Of a stretch of 63,041 nucleotides of DNA, positions 54,679 to 63,041 are shown one piece after another. The notes under the pieces are model-generated. The model had not been told where the DNA came from, made no database searches, and saw only the letters and a program-made list of their open reading frames with translations. Each line of letters opens with the position of its first letter. The first letter of the stretch is position 1. The translations under genes and the position numbers were made by a program. Origin of the DNA: Pirellulaceae bacterium (GTDB lineage Bacteria; Planctomycetota; Planctomycetia; Pirellulales; Pirellulaceae); the NCBI GenBank assembly GCA_022448315.1, contig JAKVCA010000033.1, forward strand, positions 1 to 63,041, in the 5' to 3' direction.

Positions 54679-56637
54679 TTAGAGGCGATCGAGGGTCATT
54701 AGCCAAGCCGCAAGTTCATCTCTCGACGGCTCGCCTTGCGGATCGTCGGAAACAAGAAACGTGGTCGGTAGGCCTGCGTTAGTCAATTGTGCTTTGACGT
54801 CGTTCCCTTCGATCTGTTGCATTTGGGTATCGGAAAGCCAGCATGCGGCCAAAAGTCGCTTGATCGGCTGGTTCTCTGGAAGTGGGCGATTCACGGGGAC
54901 GGGCAATCCCATCATGCCGACGCCTTGGACGGGACGGGAGTCATCTGAAGCGACTCGCCAGGCGAGGTTGCGTCCCGCTCCCTCACCGGCCACTGCCGTT
55001 TTGCGGGGGTCCAATTGATAGTCTTGCAGGGCACGTTGGATCATCCCATTGACGATCTCGATGTCTGCCGGAGTCCAGCGACGGTCCTCACTCGAGTGGG
55101 GCGAGATGATTACGACTCGATTTTTTCCGGCGATCTGCTCCCAGTCATTCTTCAGCGTCGGCTGATCATGCTGGCCTGGGATTCCAAGCCAAACCAACAT
55201 CCCAAATTTTCCATTTGGTTCGAATCCTGCAGGGATCACAACGTCGCAGGCGTTGGGGAATTGCTCAAGTTGGAACTGCTCCACCGTGGCCTCACCCGCC
55301 GCTTCACCCGAGTTGGGTTCAGGAAGGTCACTGGAAAGTGCGGCGAGGCGTACTTCGACTTCTCGGGTGGTCCCGGATCGCTCAACGGTCAGACGGCAAG
55401 ATTCATTAAGCTCAAATCGGGCGAGTGAGAGAGCGATGTCCTGATAGTTGTCGACATCGCGCTCATCGATTTGACGAATGGAATCACCCACTTGAAGGCC
55501 AGCCAATTCTGCCGGACTGCCTGGAAAAACATACTTGATCACCACTCCTTTTTCGTTTGATCTAGCCTCCGGAAGGATTCCTATCCAGATCAACCTCAGT
55601 GGCTCTATTGTCTTTGCAAGCTTGACCTGGGTTCTGTAAAGCTCTTCGCCTCGCCGCAAGATGATGTCCACCACTTCCCCTGCGTAACGACGATTGAGCG
55701 CATGTTGAAGGTCTGGAAAACGGCGAATCGGTCGACCATCCACGGAGGTGATGATGTCATCCACTTCGATGCCTGCTTCTTTGGCGGGGGATTTAACGCC
55801 AACTTTTGCAACGGTAACCGGCGAGGAAAACTGCTCGGTACTCGCCGGGGAAATTCCGAGTTTGCCGGGGTAAAGATCCTCGGGAAGACTCCAACGCTGG
55901 AGTCTTGCCATGATATCGCTCATCGGCACAGCAAAACCAATGCCGGAGTCGTACCAGTCGACACCTGCGAATGCCTCGTTGGACCGTGGGGAGATCGCAC
56001 AAAGAACTCCCATGACTCTGCCCTGGGCATCCACAAGCGGACCACCGTAGTTGTTTGGAGAAACCTTGGCGTCGGTTTGCAAAACCTTCCCGAGGACGCG
56101 GTCCTTGGCGCTAACGATGCCCACGTTGGTATTGATCTGATCGGGCTGAAAGGTTCTTCCAATCGCGACGGCCCATTGTCCGACAAGAATCCGATCCTCA
56201 CGAATCATCTCAGCGACTGGAAGTTCCGAAACATTACTCGCTCGCAGGAGGACCAGACCGCGGGCGTGGTCGGTGGCGATCTTCTCAGCCGCCCGGCGTT
56301 CTCCATTCGCGAAACGCACAAGGATCGTCGTCGGTTGATGAAGCAATGCATACGCACTGGTCACGATCAGTCCATCTTCGGACAAGATGGTTCCAGTGGA
56401 GGGACCCGCGGCGTAGTAGTTCCCCTCGACTCGTTCGAGGCCTCCCAACGTTTCGATCTGGACGACACTCGGGGCCACTTTCTCGGCAGCTTTCCGCATC
56501 AGGCTCCAGACCTCGAGCGAATCGGATGCAGCCTGTCCAAAGGAAAGTTGTGGAAGCAACGCATACGACGCGGCAACCAACACGAGGGCGAATGCTCCAA
56601 GGTCTTTGAAGTGGGTTGTCAGATGGCGTGAAAGCAT
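54679..56637 (-). CDS. HtrA-like pseudoprotease with two PDZ domains and an alpha/beta-hydrolase-like tail
   Basis: The 652-residue exported protein has a signal segment (FALVLVAASYALLPQLSFGQ). Residues 50-245 keep the S1C trypsin fold (GTILSEDGLIVTSAYAL, ILVGQWAVAIGRT, NTNVGIVSA), but none of the triad: His is Tyr96, Asp is Gly127 and Ser is Tyr197 in SPNNYGGPL. Two PDZ domains follow (VKSPAKEAGIEVDDIITSVD and FPGSPAELAGLQVGDSIRQI). The C-terminal 190 residues resemble an esterase fold (FGMLVWLGIPG, VVIISPHS, KTAVAGEGAGRNLAWRVAS), where the nucleophile elbow reads GEGAG and so lacks Ser. It is the last of three HtrA paralogues in the operon. A catalytic role seems excluded; scaffold or peptide binding is likely. 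Confidence 0.88.
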   Translation of the reverse strand: MLSRHLTTHFKDLGAFALVLVAASYALLPQLSFGQAASDSLEVWSLMRKAAEKVAPSVVQIETLGGLERVEGNYYAAGPSTGTILSEDGLIVTSAYALLHQPTTILVRFANGERRAAEKIATDHARGLVLLRASNVSELPVAEMIREDRILVGQWAVAIGRTFQPDQINTNVGIVSAKDRVLGKVLQTDAKVSPNNYGGPLVDAQGRVMGVLCAISPRSNEAFAGVDWYDSGIGFAVPMSDIMARLQRWSLPEDLYPGKLGISPASTEQFSSPVTVAKVGVKSPAKEAGIEVDDIITSVDGRPIRRFPDLQHALNRRYAGEVVDIILRRGEELYRTQVKLAKTIEPLRLIWIGILPEARSNEKGVVIKYVFPGSPAELAGLQVGDSIRQIDERDVDNYQDIALSLARFELNESCRLTVERSGTTREVEVRLAALSSDLPEPNSGEAAGEATVEQFQLEQFPNACDVVIPAGFEPNGKFGMLVWLGIPGQHDQPTLKNDWEQIAGKNRVVIISPHSSEDRRWTPADIEIVNGMIQRALQDYQLDPRKTAVAGEGAGRNLAWRVASDDSRPVQGVGMMGLPVPVNRPLPENQPIKRLLAACWLSDTQMQQIEGNDVKAQLTNAGLPTTFLVSDDPQGEPSRDELAAWLMTLDRL

Positions 56638-56679: not shown

Positions 56680-57714
56680 CTAGCGGGTTTCAAGGTCGAC
56701 GGTGATGATTTCCTGGCCACGTTGGACCGTGAGCGTGACGGGATCGTCACGGTGGATCCAGGATAATTCCGCTTCGACATGAGAGCAGGACGCCACCAGT
56801 TTGTCATTCACGAACAGAATGAGATCATCTTTGCGCAGATTGGTCGCTGATGCGGAACCTTGGGGGATAAGCCGGTCGATAAAGGGTGGTGTTTTTCCAA
56901 TGACATCAGGAACCAAGGAAAATCCGAGAAGTTCGAGTGTCATGGGTTCGCCGGGAGGTTGCCGATCTTGATCCAAGGACCCCGCGATCAATTTTCCAGA
57001 AAGAATGTCGTCGATCGATTGCTGCATGGCCTTGATCGGCATTCCATAATTCATCCAGATATTCTGGTTTCCTCGCTTCAAGTCTTTGCCAACCACCGCG
57101 ATCAGCTTACCCGCACGATCGATCAGAGCGCCTCCGGCCGTTCCGGGGTTGCTCGTCATGGCATCGACGACGTAGACCGGTCCTTTGTACGGCAGGCGGC
57201 CACCCACCCTCTCGCCGTCCAGAGGCGAAACGGCCGTTACAGTTCCCAACTGGACGCTGACCGGTTCGTTCCCCGTGGCGACACCATATAAATTAGTCAG
57301 GGCCAGTATCACATCGCCGGGCGACGCATTCGTCGTCTCATCGAGATTGAAATAGGAAACGGCCTCGGCATCAATTTTCAGGATCGCGATCTCGACACGT
57401 GGGTCGTGCCCCACGTAACGAGCTTCAAAGCGCCGGCCATCGTCTAATACCACGGCGATGACATCGGAATCGAGGACATGACTCCAAGATGTCAGAACGT
57501 GACCATTGTCAGAGATGAGGATGCCCGTCTGGTAATCTTCAAGGCCGCTGAATCCACCGGCCCCGTAAATTTTGCACATCTTCGTTTTCGCGTCTGCAAT
57601 CGTCTCAACCAGTCCTTGGCCGTGAGACGTTGCGGTCCAACCAAGGTTGAGGACCGCCGCGGATACAAGCACCACGCCAAACAATAAATTTGATTTGAGA
57701 TAGCAAAAAGTCAT
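56680..57714 (-). CDS. HtrA-like (S1C) pseudoprotease with PDZ domain
   Basis: The 344-residue exported protein has a signal peptide (LLFGVVLVSAAVLNLGWTATS). The S1C fold is clear: TGILISDNGHVLTSWSHVL keeps the His (His79), VEIAILKI has Glu108 where Asp is expected, and SNPGTAGGALID has Ala193 in place of the nucleophile Ser of GNSGG. It is therefore probably proteolytically dead. A single PDZ domain occupies about 255-344 (PQGSASATNLRKDDLILFVN). Its ATG overlaps the stop of the upstream active HtrA gene (ATGA at 57711-57714), so the two are translationally coupled and likely work together. Confidence 0.9.
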   Translation of the reverse strand: MTFCYLKSNLLFGVVLVSAAVLNLGWTATSHGQGLVETIADAKTKMCKIYGAGGFSGLEDYQTGILISDNGHVLTSWSHVLDSDVIAVVLDDGRRFEARYVGHDPRVEIAILKIDAEAVSYFNLDETTNASPGDVILALTNLYGVATGNEPVSVQLGTVTAVSPLDGERVGGRLPYKGPVYVVDAMTSNPGTAGGALIDRAGKLIAVVGKDLKRGNQNIWMNYGMPIKAMQQSIDDILSGKLIAGSLDQDRQPPGEPMTLELLGFSLVPDVIGKTPPFIDRLIPQGSASATNLRKDDLILFVNDKLVASCSHVEAELSWIHRDDPVTLTVQRGQEIITVDLETR

Positions 57715-59486
57715 TGGTTAATCCCCCCGCCAGTTCCAACCTGGTAGGACTGGATGGTGAGTGTCTGGTAGGCTTGATCACCGTTTGAGATTTGCCACTG
57801 GTAGGGCAGGACAAGGCCGTCGACTTCACGGTAGTCACCGAATTCAATCACGCATGGGTCGGCCGAAAGATCGCCGTAGCTTTCGAGGCGTGTAAGCCTG
57901 CCACTGATGGGGTCGAAAAAGAAAAGAGATTTGACCGATTGCAGAGTGGCTGAGAGCACGTCTTCGAGTTGATCAAAGTTGCCTCGAGGGGCGAGGCCCA
58001 CGTAAGTGACTTCGCCCACTTTTCTCGATTGACCGACACTCAATCGTTGCCAATGATAAGCCGCGAGAAGGAGGCCGCCACTTCCTTCGGGAAGTCTTTG
58101 GTCAGAAAGGTCGTTCTCGAAATCGAGAATCTGGACATCGCTAGGGCTCTGCCATGCCGCCACTTCGGGGCCCAGTGCCAATTCAACCACCTCGCCCTTG
58201 GATGTGGTGGCGGTGACCTTCCATGTGTTCGTCACAAGAGGGTCGGCCTCATCCAGTTCATATCCCTGAATCAGCCGTTTCTGATGCTGCTGATTAAAAA
58301 AGTAATTGGCGTAGCCACGACGAGCGACAAATTGGGCCTTCACCTCTTCTGGGAACAGGTCGGGTTTGTCTGGGGCGGGCGCGGGTGCCTCCTCGAGCGG
58401 TTTAGGATTCTCAGGATTGGGCTCAGGCAATTCCTCAGGCCGTGATTCTCCTTGTGCCGGGCCCTGAACCAAATCGATAAGTTCCTGATCAGAGTGCAAA
58501 CCGGCCAGTCGGACGGACGTGGTGAGTGTCTTGCCGTCTCGTCGAATCTTGACTGGGATTCTCCATCCCTTCGGGAAGATGCCAAGCACATTCTTGAAGC
58601 CGTTGGGAGTATCGATGCGGCGACCGCCGAAACTTACCAATTCGTCGTCATAACGGAGGCCTCTTCGATAGGCGTCCGAAGATTGGAGGACGTCGCCAAT
58701 AATGACCCGGTCATCCTCGGAGGAAGTCACGGTCGCGCCGAGGGTTGCATGATCAACAAGTCGTCCGCTTTTCAGGTACCCCATGAAATGCTTGACCTGA
58801 TTACTGGAAATGGCATAGCCCACGCCGACATTGACTCGCCCCCTTTTTTCCAGTGAGATACGTCCATTGATCCCGATCACCTGCCCGCGGTCGTTGAAAA
58901 GTGGGCCGCCCGAGTTGCCTGGATTGATGGCGGCGTCCGTCTGAATGCAGTCGGTATACTCCAGTAATGTCCCAGAAGGCTCCTGATATCGATGGATGCC
59001 AGAGACGAGTCCCCAAGTGACCGTGGGTTGCAGATTGGTTGCGAGCAGAAACGGGTTTCCAATGGCAAAACAGGGTTGGCCTAATTGCACTTGATTGCTG
59101 TCGGCGAGTTCGGCGGTTGGAAAGTCGTCCCTCCCTTGAAGCTTGATCAACGCGACGTCCCCGGTTGCATCGATGCCAACAATGACCGCGTCATAAACCA
59201 CGCCATCGTCCAATCCGCACTTCATGAACGGACCGCAAGGCTTGACCACGTGATAGTTGGTGACGGCAAACCCGTCGGGCGAGATCAGGACACCCGAACC
59301 GCCGCCTCGTCCATCCGCACTGAAAACGGCGACCGTTGCCGCACGGGCTGTCATGATGGTTTGAATTCGTTGTTCCTGAAGTTTCAGGAGTGCAGCAACG
59401 TCATCGTTCGAGGGGGCCCGTTGGGGCGTGAAGGCGACGATGGCGATAAGAATTAGCGGAATTTTGATTCCGAGGTAGGAGGTCAT
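57711..59486 (-). CDS. HtrA-like (S1C) serine protease fused to a LolA-like domain
   Basis: The 591-residue exported protease has a signal peptide (IPLILIAIVAFTPQ). The S1C domain is complete: His79 in VTNYHVV, Asp110 in TGDVALIKL and Ser192 in NPGNSGGPLFN. One PDZ domain follows at about 245-335 (LQSSDAYRRGLRYDDELVSF). A Pro/Glu-rich linker (PNPENPKPLEEAPAPAP) leads to a C-terminal domain of about 210 residues resembling LolA/outer-membrane lipoprotein sorting folds (FFFDPISGRLTRLESYGD, GDYREVDGLVLPYQWQ). It is the only member of the trio with an intact triad. It is fourth in the operon and overlaps the next gene by 4 bp. Natural substrates unknown. Confidence 0.92.
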   Translation of the reverse strand: MTSYLGIKIPLILIAIVAFTPQRAPSNDDVAALLKLQEQRIQTIMTARAATVAVFSADGRGGGSGVLISPDGFAVTNYHVVKPCGPFMKCGLDDGVVYDAVIVGIDATGDVALIKLQGRDDFPTAELADSNQVQLGQPCFAIGNPFLLATNLQPTVTWGLVSGIHRYQEPSGTLLEYTDCIQTDAAINPGNSGGPLFNDRGQVIGINGRISLEKRGRVNVGVGYAISSNQVKHFMGYLKSGRLVDHATLGATVTSSEDDRVIIGDVLQSSDAYRRGLRYDDELVSFGGRRIDTPNGFKNVLGIFPKGWRIPVKIRRDGKTLTTSVRLAGLHSDQELIDLVQGPAQGESRPEELPEPNPENPKPLEEAPAPAPDKPDLFPEEVKAQFVARRGYANYFFNQQHQKRLIQGYELDEADPLVTNTWKVTATTSKGEVVELALGPEVAAWQSPSDVQILDFENDLSDQRLPEGSGGLLLAAYHWQRLSVGQSRKVGEVTYVGLAPRGNFDQLEDVLSATLQSVKSLFFFDPISGRLTRLESYGDLSADPCVIEFGDYREVDGLVLPYQWQISNGDQAYQTLTIQSYQVGTGGGINQ

Positions 59487-59525: not shown

Positions 59526-60800
59526 TCACTTCACAGCGCGTAATTCGATTAAGTGAAGACGGTCACCAAGGTCTCCAGCTTCACCGAAGAGGATTTGTAT
59601 CGAAAGGCGGCGGACGCCCTCGATTTCGAGGTCAATCTTGACAGGTTCTGGCGATTCGCCATCGACAGTAGAGGAAAAAAGAGCCTGCCCATCACCCTCA
59701 ATCAAGAGGGAGACGTTTCCGCGAGGCCGAACAGCCGGGTCGATTCCAGCCCAGCCGATTAGTCTTTTGAAGCCCTCGGGAACTCGGTAGACAAGACGGC
59801 TTTGGCTTCGTAAGGCCATTCCTCGAGTGAAGGTTCGGGTTTCGGTCGTTCCGCTGCCAAAACCGGTTTCACTGTAGAGTGACAGCGGTTTGCCGGAGAA
59901 TGTCGAGTTTCTCGTCATGGCAAACAGATTCTGAAGATGGTTGGCTTCGAGGGTTCCACCGACAAACGGTGTCCACTCAAAGGTGGAAGATTCGACGTCC
60001 GCAAAGTGAAGGACCCGTCCTACTTCAAGGTCGAGTTCGACGATATCTGCGATGCGGCTAGGGAGGTCCACGTTGGAAAGCGTCTTCGCAACGAAGGTCT
60101 CGGAATCAACACGCCAATCTCTCAGGTAGAGAACCTGTCCAAAACGGTCGACGAGTTTGGCTTGAACCTCCGGAAGCTTTCGTCCAACCGGGTGATAATA
60201 TCTCAACGTGTCAAGTCTTTCACGCTCAACTTCAACCTCATTGTCGTCGAATTTGAAAGCGAGTGAAGTTTCGGAAAGCGTTCCCAGAACACCTTCGACA
60301 CCGCTGAGCGTTAAAACGTCGTCGACCTCTCGTCGAACAATAAGTAAGTCTCCCGCTTCGGTGGATTCCATGATTTCGGACCAGTCCGTTTCGAGGTCCG
60401 AGCCTTGCGGGATGGTCTTGAAGCGAATCCAGCGGATATTGCGAGTCGGTATGGTTGCCGTGAGTCCTGTGATGAGCTGTACCGTTGCGACGGAGTCTTC
60501 AACGGTTACCTGTTGTGCGAGGAGTTTGGTGTCGTCCACGAGTTCAAGCGAGAGGGTGGTTCCCGGAATCTCGGCGGCGTCCGTTTTGAGCCACTCAATT
60601 TTTGCGATTTCAGAGATGGTTAACGCCTTCAGTTCGCCAGACTGCAACGATAGGTTGGCGGATTCCTCAGTGATTTCCAGCTGTTGCCCCGCAACCGCCT
60701 CACCTGACATCGTGATCACCCGAACGGTTTGGCCATTGACAACCGTATTGGACATTGCAATCGCGGTGAGGAGCAGTAACATCACGCGGAAATTGATCAT
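59526..60800 (-). CDS. secreted NPCBM-domain protein with repeated short beta-motifs
   Basis: The 424-residue exported protein starts at ATG 60800 with a signal peptide (VMLLLLTAIAMSNTVVNGQ). Three copies of a short beta-motif lie in residues 20-200 (for example VITMSGEAVAGQQLEI, LSLQSGELKALTISEIAKIEW, VEGVLGTLSETSLAFKF), similar to motifs in the protein at 7940. The C-terminal 130 residues form an NPCBM/NEW2 carbohydrate-binding module (LRSQSRLVYRVPEGFKRL, GWAGIDPAVRPRGNVSLLI, DRLHLIELRAVK). It lies 39 bp before the active HtrA gene in the same operon. NPCBM modules bind galactose-like sugars in glycoside hydrolases, but no hydrolase domain is present. Confidence 0.82.
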   Translation of the reverse strand: MINFRVMLLLLTAIAMSNTVVNGQTVRVITMSGEAVAGQQLEITEESANLSLQSGELKALTISEIAKIEWLKTDAAEIPGTTLSLELVDDTKLLAQQVTVEDSVATVQLITGLTATIPTRNIRWIRFKTIPQGSDLETDWSEIMESTEAGDLLIVRREVDDVLTLSGVEGVLGTLSETSLAFKFDDNEVEVERERLDTLRYYHPVGRKLPEVQAKLVDRFGQVLYLRDWRVDSETFVAKTLSNVDLPSRIADIVELDLEVGRVLHFADVESSTFEWTPFVGGTLEANHLQNLFAMTRNSTFSGKPLSLYSETGFGSGTTETRTFTRGMALRSQSRLVYRVPEGFKRLIGWAGIDPAVRPRGNVSLLIEGDGQALFSSTVDGESPEPVKIDLEIEGVRRLSIQILFGEAGDLGDRLHLIELRAVK

Positions 60801-60922
60801 CAGTTGTTGCCTTATATTCCGTGTTGGCAATTTCACGTTTCAATGAAGTCCGTGTTGGAAGAGATTCCTGTCTCAGCGCTTTGCAAACTAAGGTCCATTC
60901 TTGGTTTGACGCGAATCTTTTA

Positions 60923-61981
60923 CTACTGATCCGTGCTGTTGGGGTCTTCCGCAAGTTTCCGGTAGTATTCTTCGATAAGTTCGCGGTAATGGGCCGGAAG
61001 ATCTTTGGCGAGCTCGGCCATCGCAGCCGCCCGTTCCTTCGCGGGCAGATCCCCCCAGTCTTCTCCAGGTCCCTGAGCTTTTTGGTCGACGTCTCCTTCT
61101 GCCGGTCCACCCTTCAAGGTGCTGTCTTGAGCTGGTGAGGCGGGTGAGTTTGACGCACTTGCGGCCATTTGTTGTTGTTGCTGTTGTTGTTCAAGATCTT
61201 CGATCAGCTTGTCCAATTTTTGAATGACGTCGTCCTCTTCTTTTCGCACACGTGTGCCGGAACGGTGCAGAGTTTGCCGCCGGCGGATGTCATCCATCAT
61301 CCGAGAGATTTCATCGAGTGAATCGGATTCAAGTGGCTGTAGATCGGCCACAACAAGTTTTGAGACGTCTCGATACCGACGAGGCAATTCTTCTTCTCGC
61401 TCCAGCAGTTGAGTGAGATCACTCAATGCGGGCTCTTTCTGAATGACCTGTTGGTAGGCGATTCCACGGTAAAACAGTAATGCTACCGGATCGATCACCT
61501 CTGCCGGGGTTAGAGCAGACAACAATTCGATCGACTCGTCATAGAGTTGGTGTTGGGCGTACCAGATTCCGGTCGCCAATGACAATTGAGATCGAAGCCA
61601 GGCAGGAATCCTTTCGTCGGTCAACGGCAGTAAGTCAAGCTGCACAAACGGCGTTTGTGAGGATTCCAGTGTCGAGACGAGCGTGGCAGTTTCTGGAACG
61701 ATCAGGGTTGCAGATTTCAAGCCGACTTGAAGCAGGTCGAAAGAATTTTCGGCTTGTTGCGAATCAGACCATAGCTGTTGCAGAATTCCTGTGGTCGCTT
61801 CATCGAGCTGCTTTTCTTCGGCTAGCGCCGCGAACTGACTCTCGACGGCCGCGATGTCCGGTAGTTTCCATGTCGCTTCCTCGGCAAGCTCGCTCTGAGC
61901 AAAGCCAAGTGTTGCGGGCAATGTGGCCATGCTGATGGCCACAAGGAGGAGATGTCGACGAACCCTTGTTAAGACATTCAT
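60923..61981 (-). CDS. secreted helical Gln-rich protein, unknown function
   Basis: The 352-residue exported protein starts at ATG 61981 with a signal peptide (HLLLVAISMATLPATLGFAQ). The body is mostly helical, with a TPR-like section (ESIELLSALTPAEV, LLFYRGIAYQQVIQKE) around 115-180. A coiled-coil segment near 200-260 ends in a poly-Gln run (eight Q, at about 61160-61190), then a Ser/Ala/Pro-rich linker and a helical end (ERAAAMAELAKDLPAHYREL). It lies 13 bp after the coiled-coil gene at 61995, so it is probably co-transcribed. No family is recognised; the small tail motif YRELIEEYYRKLAE recurs in planctomycete proteins of this neighbourhood type. Confidence 0.72.
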   Translation of the reverse strand: MNVLTRVRRHLLLVAISMATLPATLGFAQSELAEEATWKLPDIAAVESQFAALAEEKQLDEATTGILQQLWSDSQQAENSFDLLQVGLKSATLIVPETATLVSTLESSQTPFVQLDLLPLTDERIPAWLRSQLSLATGIWYAQHQLYDESIELLSALTPAEVIDPVALLFYRGIAYQQVIQKEPALSDLTQLLEREEELPRRYRDVSKLVVADLQPLESDSLDEISRMMDDIRRRQTLHRSGTRVRKEEDDVIQKLDKLIEDLEQQQQQQQMAASASNSPASPAQDSTLKGGPAEGDVDQKAQGPGEDWGDLPAKERAAAMAELAKDLPAHYRELIEEYYRKLAEDPNSTDQ

Positions 61982-61994
61982 ATGTCGCCCAATA

Positions 61995-63041
61995 CTATTG
62001 GTTTTTCCCGAGGACCACGTCTCGGGTGATTTGTTGAAGTTTGTCTTCACGATCCGCGAGTTTCTGGAGTGCCTCTTGAATGTCAGGATCGGAGGATTCA
62101 CCCAGCAGGTCATCCGGATCGTCGAGAAGTCTTGAATACCGTTGATGACGTTTATTGATCCGATATTGGAGCCCTCGAATCATTTTCAGTTCCTGAATCT
62201 GATCAACGAGTGGCATATCGCCGGGGTCCATGGGAGGGGATTGCTGGGGCGGACTCTGTTGTTGTTCCTGTAAATCTTGTTGCGCCTGCACTAAGGCTTC
62301 GATGACATAGTCCAGCGTATCAATGATATCTTCTTCAATCTCCTGAGTGATGCGACCCGGATTGCCTTCTGAGAGACGGCCAGAAACCTGAATCATGTCG
62401 TCACGCATCTGCTCGACCACTTCGGGGAAGGCGATTGATGTGCCCTCGTCGAGCAAAAGCGTAAGAGCGCGGTCAGCATCGGTTGCAACTTCTCGCTGTT
62501 GGACACCGAGTTTTCCGGTTTGGATTAAGTACTCTCCACGACGTTGCTCCGGCACCGTGCGGTCAAGTCGCTTGGTTGACTCGTAGATTCGAATTTCCGC
62601 TTCAAGCATTTTGCGGAAACGACTCTCAAGCATCGCGAGGGTTCGGCCAATTTCCTCTTCTCGTAGTTGTCGAAGAATTTCTTCAAGCTCCTTCCGAGCT
62701 TGTGCGAGTTCGCGTTCTGCGTCCTCCATATCCTGAACCGATTCCTCTCGCCTCGCCTGCTCCAGCTTGAGTTGTGCGTCTTTCATTTTTTCTTCCGCAG
62801 CTTTCAATCGCTGCTGGACCGGATCCTGCGGTTCGGAGGGGGGCGTCGGGGGCGTGGGGCCGTTTTGGCTATCTCCCTCGGGCTCTCCCTCGCTGGGCTC
62901 TCCCTCGCTGGGCTGGCCTTCGCTGGGCTCTCCCTCGCTGGGCTCTCCCTCGCTGGGTTCCCCTTCGCTGGGTTCCCCTTCGCTGGGTTCCCCTTCGCTG
63001 GGTTCCCCTTCGCTGGGTTCCCCTTCGCTGGGTTCCCCTTC
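61995..63041 (-). CDS. coiled-coil protein with EGEPS repeats, N-terminus cut by window edge
   Basis: The minus strand is open from the right edge to the stop at 61995, giving 348 codons of a larger protein. It starts with a (EGEPS)n low-complexity array, then [13 protein letters not shown], then a long heptad-rich coiled coil ([39 protein letters not shown]) and a Gln/Pro-rich stretch ([19 protein letters not shown]). The end is again helical. This resembles the C-terminal part of DUF4175-like proteins found near BatA/DUF58 genes, but that is a guess. It is the first visible gene of the HtrA operon; stop to next start is 13 bp. Confidence 0.75.
62876..63041 (-). repeat. tandem 15-bp repeat coding for Glu-Gly-Glu-Pro-Ser
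   Basis: About eleven copies of a 15-bp unit (GAAGGGGAACCCAGC on the minus strand) run to the right edge. The outer copies are nearly identical and those toward the gene middle diverge (GAGGGAGAGCCCAGC, one with Gln). It encodes a flexible acidic linker within the coiled-coil protein. The true repeat number is unknown because the window ends inside it. Confidence 0.95.

Follow-up and report, generated by a model that had tools for sequence, protein, structure and literature searches.

The DNA analysed here, called the window below, is a stretch of 63,041 nucleotides (contig JAKVCA010000033.1, assembly GCA_022448315.1) from a Pirellulaceae bacterium. On its minus strand, at 54679..56637, it carries a gene for a 652-residue fusion protein that joins an HtrA-like protease domain, two PDZ domains and an alpha/beta-hydrolase (ABH) domain, and in which both enzyme folds lack their catalytic residues. 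Since this gene also follows those of an intact HtrA and of a second dead HtrA, we assign to the protein a putative binding or regulatory rather than enzymatic role. We lean, with moderate confidence, towards a non-catalytic periplasmic partner of the adjacent intact HtrA that would work by analogy with MamO, the pseudoprotease that activates MamE.

The gene was delimited from its open reading frame (ORF), its Pfam domains and its matches in relative genomes: the frame is open over 652 codons on the minus strand, on which all features below lie unless another strand is named, and the plus-strand frame of 54679-56637 holds six stops. An antisense ORF of 309 codons (55702-56631, plus strand) was considered as a gene and rejected; it recurs in 11 of 20 relatives but mirrors the conserved coding strand, of which it is probably a shadow. 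Residues 1-35 (56533..56637), read by eye from the sequence with no predictor run, resemble a signal peptide, and the protein is probably secreted. The trypsin-like domain follows (residues 46-243, 55909..56502), in which Pfam finds Trypsin_2 at residues 81-211 (E 4.1e-19), and then PDZ in two stretches, PDZ1 (residues 252-340, 55618..55884) and PDZ2 (residues 350-432, 55342..55590), an order that Pfam and structure comparisons both place in the HtrA/Do-family architecture. The ABH domain (residues 455-652, 54682..55275) ends the protein.

The protease domain of the fusion protein lacks its catalytic triad

Residue counts across the family come from sets of homologues that were gathered in different ways. 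We collected 80 loci with search patterns that included the NYGG motif, and the rows kept in column counts number 69 for the intact HtrA, 75 for the second dead HtrA and 81 for the fusion protein, of at most 81 (cut-offs of 300, 150 and 300 bits); the alignments termed A2 and A3 held 78 and 61 of 80 usable rows. The motif was again required in a set of further homologues, which comprises 51 rows (50 with NY and one with NV) after 27 duplicates and eight rows without the motif were dropped; among these eight, two are family members with FYGG (L177 and L178), one has an in-frame stop (L021) and five are other proteins. A motif-free recount used 77 homologues found by whole-protein or C-terminal-profile searches, of which 23 are shared with the motif-aided 81 and 76 have a residue at the ABH nucleophile column.

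In a joint alignment with the intact neighbouring HtrA, the fusion family mostly has Asn, Met and Tyr at the His, Asp and Ser columns, and the window protein has all three triad residues replaced, which bears out an earlier note on this DNA that had, without naming a strand, called it a triad-less HtrA. Homologue alignments place Tyr197 (codon 56047..56049), within an SPxNYGG motif, at the catalytic Ser site. Among the motif-free homologues this column holds Tyr in 76 of 77, Val in one and Ser in none, the His column holds His in 0/77 (1/26 in the sampled joint alignment), the Asp column holds Asp in a single protein of the 77, and Gly occupies the oxyanion-hole position in 1/77. Tyr also fills the Ser column in 81/81 rows of the motif-aided set, a count that is partly built in, since NYGG was among the search patterns.

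The domain nonetheless remains recognizable as a member of its fold. A full-length model (pLDDT 92.7) has DegP and DegQ as its best structural matches, and the Do-family model TIGR02037 matches the fusion protein with E 8.9e-54. The score of 183 bits lies below the curated cut-off of 416.2, under which the intact neighbouring HtrA also falls (220.4 bits). The MamO family model gives 30.2 bits against a cut-off of 800 bits. Mean pairwise identity is 0.61 for the protease domain of the fusion protein, compared to 0.75 for that of the intact HtrA and 0.38 for the ABH domain, and since it stands so between them the dead protease domain is, as judged from its sequences, still constrained; the protease domain of the other dead HtrA has 0.62.

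The C-terminal domain is a predicted alpha/beta-hydrolase fold without a nucleophile serine

The last 190 residues had been read in the earlier note as an esterase fold, with the strand VVIISPHS and the elbow AVAGEGAG, both of which are found in the window protein. Pfam alone gives a faint signal: Abhydrolase_3 matches the full protein with E 0.0053, below the Pfam cut-off, and the isolated C-terminal domain of the window protein matches no Pfam family at E 0.01. Across 78 aligned members, the same domain is matched by BD-FAE in 30/78 and by Abhydrolase_3 in 27/78, and a profile built from these 78 domains finds, among solved structures, the esterase LC-Est1C (3wyd, E 2e-12), a PHB depolymerase (8daj, 6.5e-10) and feruloyl esterases. 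Two TAL-effector rows in the same profile search (E 7.6e-07 and 1.9e-04) had no single stretch that passed alone and were therefore discounted as artefacts of composition.

Structure prediction agrees with the profile. The AlphaFold2 model of the domain has a mean pLDDT of 90.9 and a pTM of 0.90, all 1000 Foldseek-ranked chains align to it with a VIA Z of at least 8, and the best VIA-align partner is the LC-Est1 esterase 3wyd (Z 18.2, 3.0 A, 179 residues). Judged by their titles, the best 50 of these 1000 matches belong to esterases, thioesterases, lipases, DPP-type peptidases or relatives of these. The profile E values and structural Z scores rule out a chance resemblance to esterases, and on the strength of the model the C-terminal domain is an alpha/beta-hydrolase fold, nearest to the LC-Est1, PHB-depolymerase, feruloyl-esterase and carboxylesterase kinds, just as that reading had foreseen.

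The nucleophile elbow GEGAG (residues 551-555, 54973..54987) has Gly553 where the elbow Ser is expected, as sequence, alignments and profile agree, so that the replacement of Ser by Gly proposed earlier is confirmed. Conservation of GEGAG had been named earlier as a check, and the homologues do not keep this sequence; what they share is the lack of Ser. In 81 rows, the nucleophile column holds Gln in 36, Glu in 18, Gly in 11, Arg in six, Ser in one and other residues in the rest; Ser occupies it in 3/51 further non-redundant homologues, which makes 4/132 for both sets together, and in 3/76 of the homologues gathered without the motif, a set that overlaps the other two. The residues seen at this column are Q, G, E, A, R, K, D, S, T and N. 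Homologues with GxSxG had been named earlier as what would speak against the idea. Homologues with Ser at this place are rare but do exist: there are four (L129, L137, L143 and L152), and L129 alone among them also has Asp and His near the expected positions.

The aligned region of the window ABH domain contains no His, and a His together with Asp occurs in a minority of distant homologues. As to the catalytic acid, the window protein has one Asp inside the aligned region, at a column that varies among homologues. No conserved catalytic-type residue stands at the ABH triad positions across the aligned homologues. The description of one polypeptide that combines two PDZ domains with two dead enzyme folds therefore applies to the window protein and to nearly all of the relatives seen, and it is fair to infer from it a putative pure binding device.

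As a separate observation on this domain, positions 464 and 503 are both Cys in 40/81 rows and exactly one of them is Cys in 41/81, the window protein having the first only; a disulfide 464-503 is possible in some family members, as far as sequences go. Two further kinds of ABH-like protein with a non-Ser elbow were also seen in planctomycetes. Among small ones (about 250-350 residues; L253-L261), eight of nine elbows could be read and none has Ser, the elbow of L260 not being displayed, and among those of about 755-1174 residues (L174, L175, L179, L180, L190 and L262-L266) 10/10 elbows are non-Ser. Ser and a His are kept in three ABH-like proteins from elsewhere in the phylum (L267, L269 and L270).

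The fusion family is conserved in several families of the class

A single match that reaches residue 590 or beyond is found in 45 of 60 relative genomes, the window's own included, and three more have the match in two pieces. In the genome collection, 579 stretches encode relatives, and the 80 that were kept are planctomycetes by title, except L105, which is titled 'bacterium'. Open frames, strong conservation and these 579 related stretches rule out the decay of one single gene.

A sample of 148 genomes of the window's class gave strong C-terminal matches in the other families f22, f23 and f26 and weaker ones in f24. Sixteen genomes of family f21 match the second dead HtrA at best with E 8e-17 or weaker, or not at all (f24 gives 1e-34 to 1e-59), and four f21 matches to the C-terminal profile that we inspected all lie in other proteins; on these sequence matches, f21 appears to be without the three-HtrA system. 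In a sample of 246 genomes of the phylum, 26 match at 1e-20, 15 from the window's class and 11 from outside it. One of these 11 (G317, E 9e-33) holds a family member with both partner genes adjoining, and the other 10 are weaker. Conservation of the fusion protein thus spans several families within the window's class and reaches at least one genome beyond that class.

The fusion gene closes a block of three HtrA genes

The fusion gene is the last of a block that runs from the intact HtrA through the second dead HtrA. The intact HtrA (57711..59486, 591 residues), identified from Pfam and alignments, overlaps the next gene by four bases and keeps its triad throughout, with His in 65/65 and Asp in 65/65 (4 of the 69 rows are gapped there) and Ser in 69/69. 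Its conserved C-terminal part of about 240 residues has no Pfam match and, with a profile of only four sequences, no significant match in the PDB (best E 0.25). The second dead HtrA (56680..57714, 344 residues), which Pfam gives one PDZ domain, has Ala at the Ser column and Glu at the Asp column: in 75 rows, the former is Ala in 63 and never Ser, and the latter is Glu in 63, with Asp retained in seven. Its likely His site is Tyr in 60 and His in 12, in a place where the alignment is ambiguous.

Beyond the block lie three conserved neighbours, recognized in relatives: a protein with an NPCBM domain in Pfam and no NCBIfam match (59526..60836), a protein with no confident Pfam match (60923..62113), and another with none either (61995..62807), which does not reach the length of its relatives and is probably truncated where the contig ends. 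At loci with enough sequence upstream of the fusion gene, the second dead HtrA is present in 72/73, the intact HtrA in 64/64 and the NPCBM gene in 56/56; the single locus without the second dead HtrA (L063) has 1.5 kb upstream. The stretches for gene order and for the run described next were chosen by hand for good matches and long contigs and are not random. The six-gene order is held in 12/12 stretches from families f22, f23 and f26 (L191-L202).

Farther upstream in one relative come PQQ/BamB-like, squalene-cyclase-like, MoxR AAA_3, DUF58, BatA and VWA-like genes. Besides this relative, from which the queries were taken, 16 further stretches were compared: 12 of them carry homologues of MoxR, DUF58, BatA and VWA upstream, with order and strand preserved, three have none of them (L205, L210 and L217), and L216 has the VWA gene and its follower only. 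In the window's own genome the MoxR-DUF58-BatA-VWA run lies on contig C85. C85 ends about 0.9 kb past the match to the run's next gene, and the gene after that is the one in which the window contig breaks off, so that the two contigs probably carry one continuous run.

In a quick tree built from 54 protease domains (24 of other HtrAs and 10 from each member of the block), each of the three HtrAs lies on one side of a branch (SH-aLRT 95-100), with stems of 2.35 and 2.5 for the dead HtrAs and 0.77 for the intact one. The two dead HtrAs are not grouped in this tree, whose deep branches are weak and which brings long branches together. The window copies of both dead HtrAs have the longest tips among the 10 of each kind (0.82 and 0.78), and the protease domain of the window's intact HtrA is the second most divergent of 49; because this intact copy is strongly divergent as well, the window lineage may be fast-evolving in general.

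Possible roles of the fusion protein

If the fusion protein is a partner of the intact HtrA, its dead protease fold, PDZ domains and ABH domain would bind clients or envelope partners, and bound clients would be presented to the adjacent active HtrA, or that HtrA would be controlled, possibly with the fusion protein inside a mixed HtrA oligomer. Its action would then be MamO-like, that of a pseudoprotease which activates a partner protease without catalysis. The folds, the lost catalytic residues, the conservation and the gene neighbourhood are observed; secretion, this partnership, the client binding and any link to MoxR or VWA proteins we infer. Of the 53 loci with a complete set of the five genes compared, 49 entered an analysis of rate covariation that regressed out two operon neighbours. 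In this analysis the intact protease domain correlates in rate with the PDZ domains of the fusion protein (0.51) and with the other dead protease domain (0.44).

Several observations weigh against such a partnership or against a clean loss of activity. The rate correlation between the intact protease domain and that of the fusion protein is only 0.06, which gives no support for their direct pairing. According to the available parts of PMC4794232, activation by MamO depended on the TauE domain, and physical contact between MamO and MamE had not been found; for these two reasons the MamO analogy is no proof of a shared oligomer. Within the family, the ABH domain of L129, which perhaps retains a complete triad, may be active. 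Six other homologues (L121, L144, L150, L151, L164 and L165) have Asp and His in the triad regions with Gly or Ala as nucleophile, and because of these the nucleophile Ser is suggested to have been lost first, the remaining triad decaying later.

That rate covariation does not back a pairing of both protease domains speaks for a stand-alone binder or chaperone. In such a protein the dead protease and PDZ domains would capture unfolded proteins or C-terminal peptides, and the docking of the ABH domain would be on a wall or membrane component, with no regulation of an active HtrA and with the genes kept together for one pathway. The near-fixed adjacency to the intact HtrA (64/64) and to the second dead HtrA (72/73) suggests instead a functional set, and we regard a stand-alone role as rather unlikely. 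Less probable again is that the three HtrAs serve the MoxR-DUF58-BatA-VWA module as its periplasmic arm. They would receive and cleave the clients of a membrane AAA+/VWA chaperone, with the fusion protein as adaptor to VWA proteins. The ordered, same-strand run in 12/16 stretches and in the query-supplying relative, and its presence on C85, would fit such an arm, but the run is not found in 3/16 and is partial in 1/16, and sharing an operon does not demonstrate contact.

Unusual catalysis by the ABH or protease domain through another residue is highly improbable: the Ser of L129 with its nearby Asp and His, and the distant homologues that keep Asp and His beside Gly or Ala, leave some room for it, but the ABH nucleophile column is freely variable, its triad positions hold no conserved catalytic-type residue, and the protease His column is devoid of His in all 77 motif-free homologues. 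Hardly credible is a role in a MoxR-vWA conflict system, as an inactive effector or decoy, for which MoxR and VWA genes lie nearby and which has a precedent in the available text of PMC7159879, where the effector trypsin domains of such systems are nearly all inactive, because those effectors are variable whereas the fusion gene is conserved and colinear, and because the MoxR examined fits AAA_3 (5.5e-64) far better than bpMoxR (2.9e-10).

Comparison with known systems and significance

Pseudo-HtrAs and dead ABH proteins are both already known kinds. With DegP and DegQ of the Do family, its best structural matches and fellow matches of TIGR02037, the fusion protein shares a protease domain and two PDZ domains; it differs from them by its missing triad, its score below the TIGR02037 cut-off and its extra ABH domain. 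With the LC-Est1 C-terminal esterase, PHB depolymerase and feruloyl esterase it shares fold and profile, but it has no nucleophile Ser and is joined to a pseudo-HtrA. In DPP10, an ABH protein with a dead site, the fold likewise serves modulation, in an unrelated architecture and organism. The title of its structure 4wjl names a modulator of Kv4 channels.

The closest parallel is MamO of magnetosomes, the pseudo-HtrA with a tested function that we found in the literature searched. As described in the accessible portion of PMC4794232, MamO has a degenerate triad, a residue other than Gly at position 193 and a bulky Trp in loop L1, and it activates MamE non-catalytically. To the extent covered there, it shares with the fusion protein the trypsin/HtrA fold, the degenerate triad, the non-Gly oxyanion position, a bulky residue in loop L1 and an extra C-terminal domain, and its action with an active HtrA resembles what we propose here by analogy. 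MamO has a TauE domain; the fusion protein has instead two PDZ domains and a dead ABH domain, and it occurs in planctomycetes with two dead HtrAs per block. Neither the fusion nor a MoxR-DUF58-HtrA operon is described in the titles or abstract openings of the literature matches listed, most subscription papers being outside this coverage. A 2019 survey of microbial PDZ proteins (PMC6411480) reports, in the text available, many PDZ proteins in planctomycetes, and in that text the terms 'inactive', 'catalytic triad', 'esterase', 'hydrolase' and 'fusion' do not occur.

To annotate these fusion proteins as serine proteases or esterases would misdescribe almost all of the family. The conserved set of an active HtrA and two dead ones, of which one is fused to a second dead enzyme, behind a MoxR/VWA run, makes up a natural system for studying the role of dead protease subunits. 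We tentatively consider it possible that they belong to a planctomycete envelope machine, in which a MoxR AAA+/DUF58/BatA-VWA module would be linked with a mixed HtrA complex whose members are an active HtrA and two obligately dead ones, the last with a dead hydrolase as docking arm, conserved through much of a class. If this were true, dead HtrA subunits would be an ancient core of protein quality control, beyond a magnetosome oddity.
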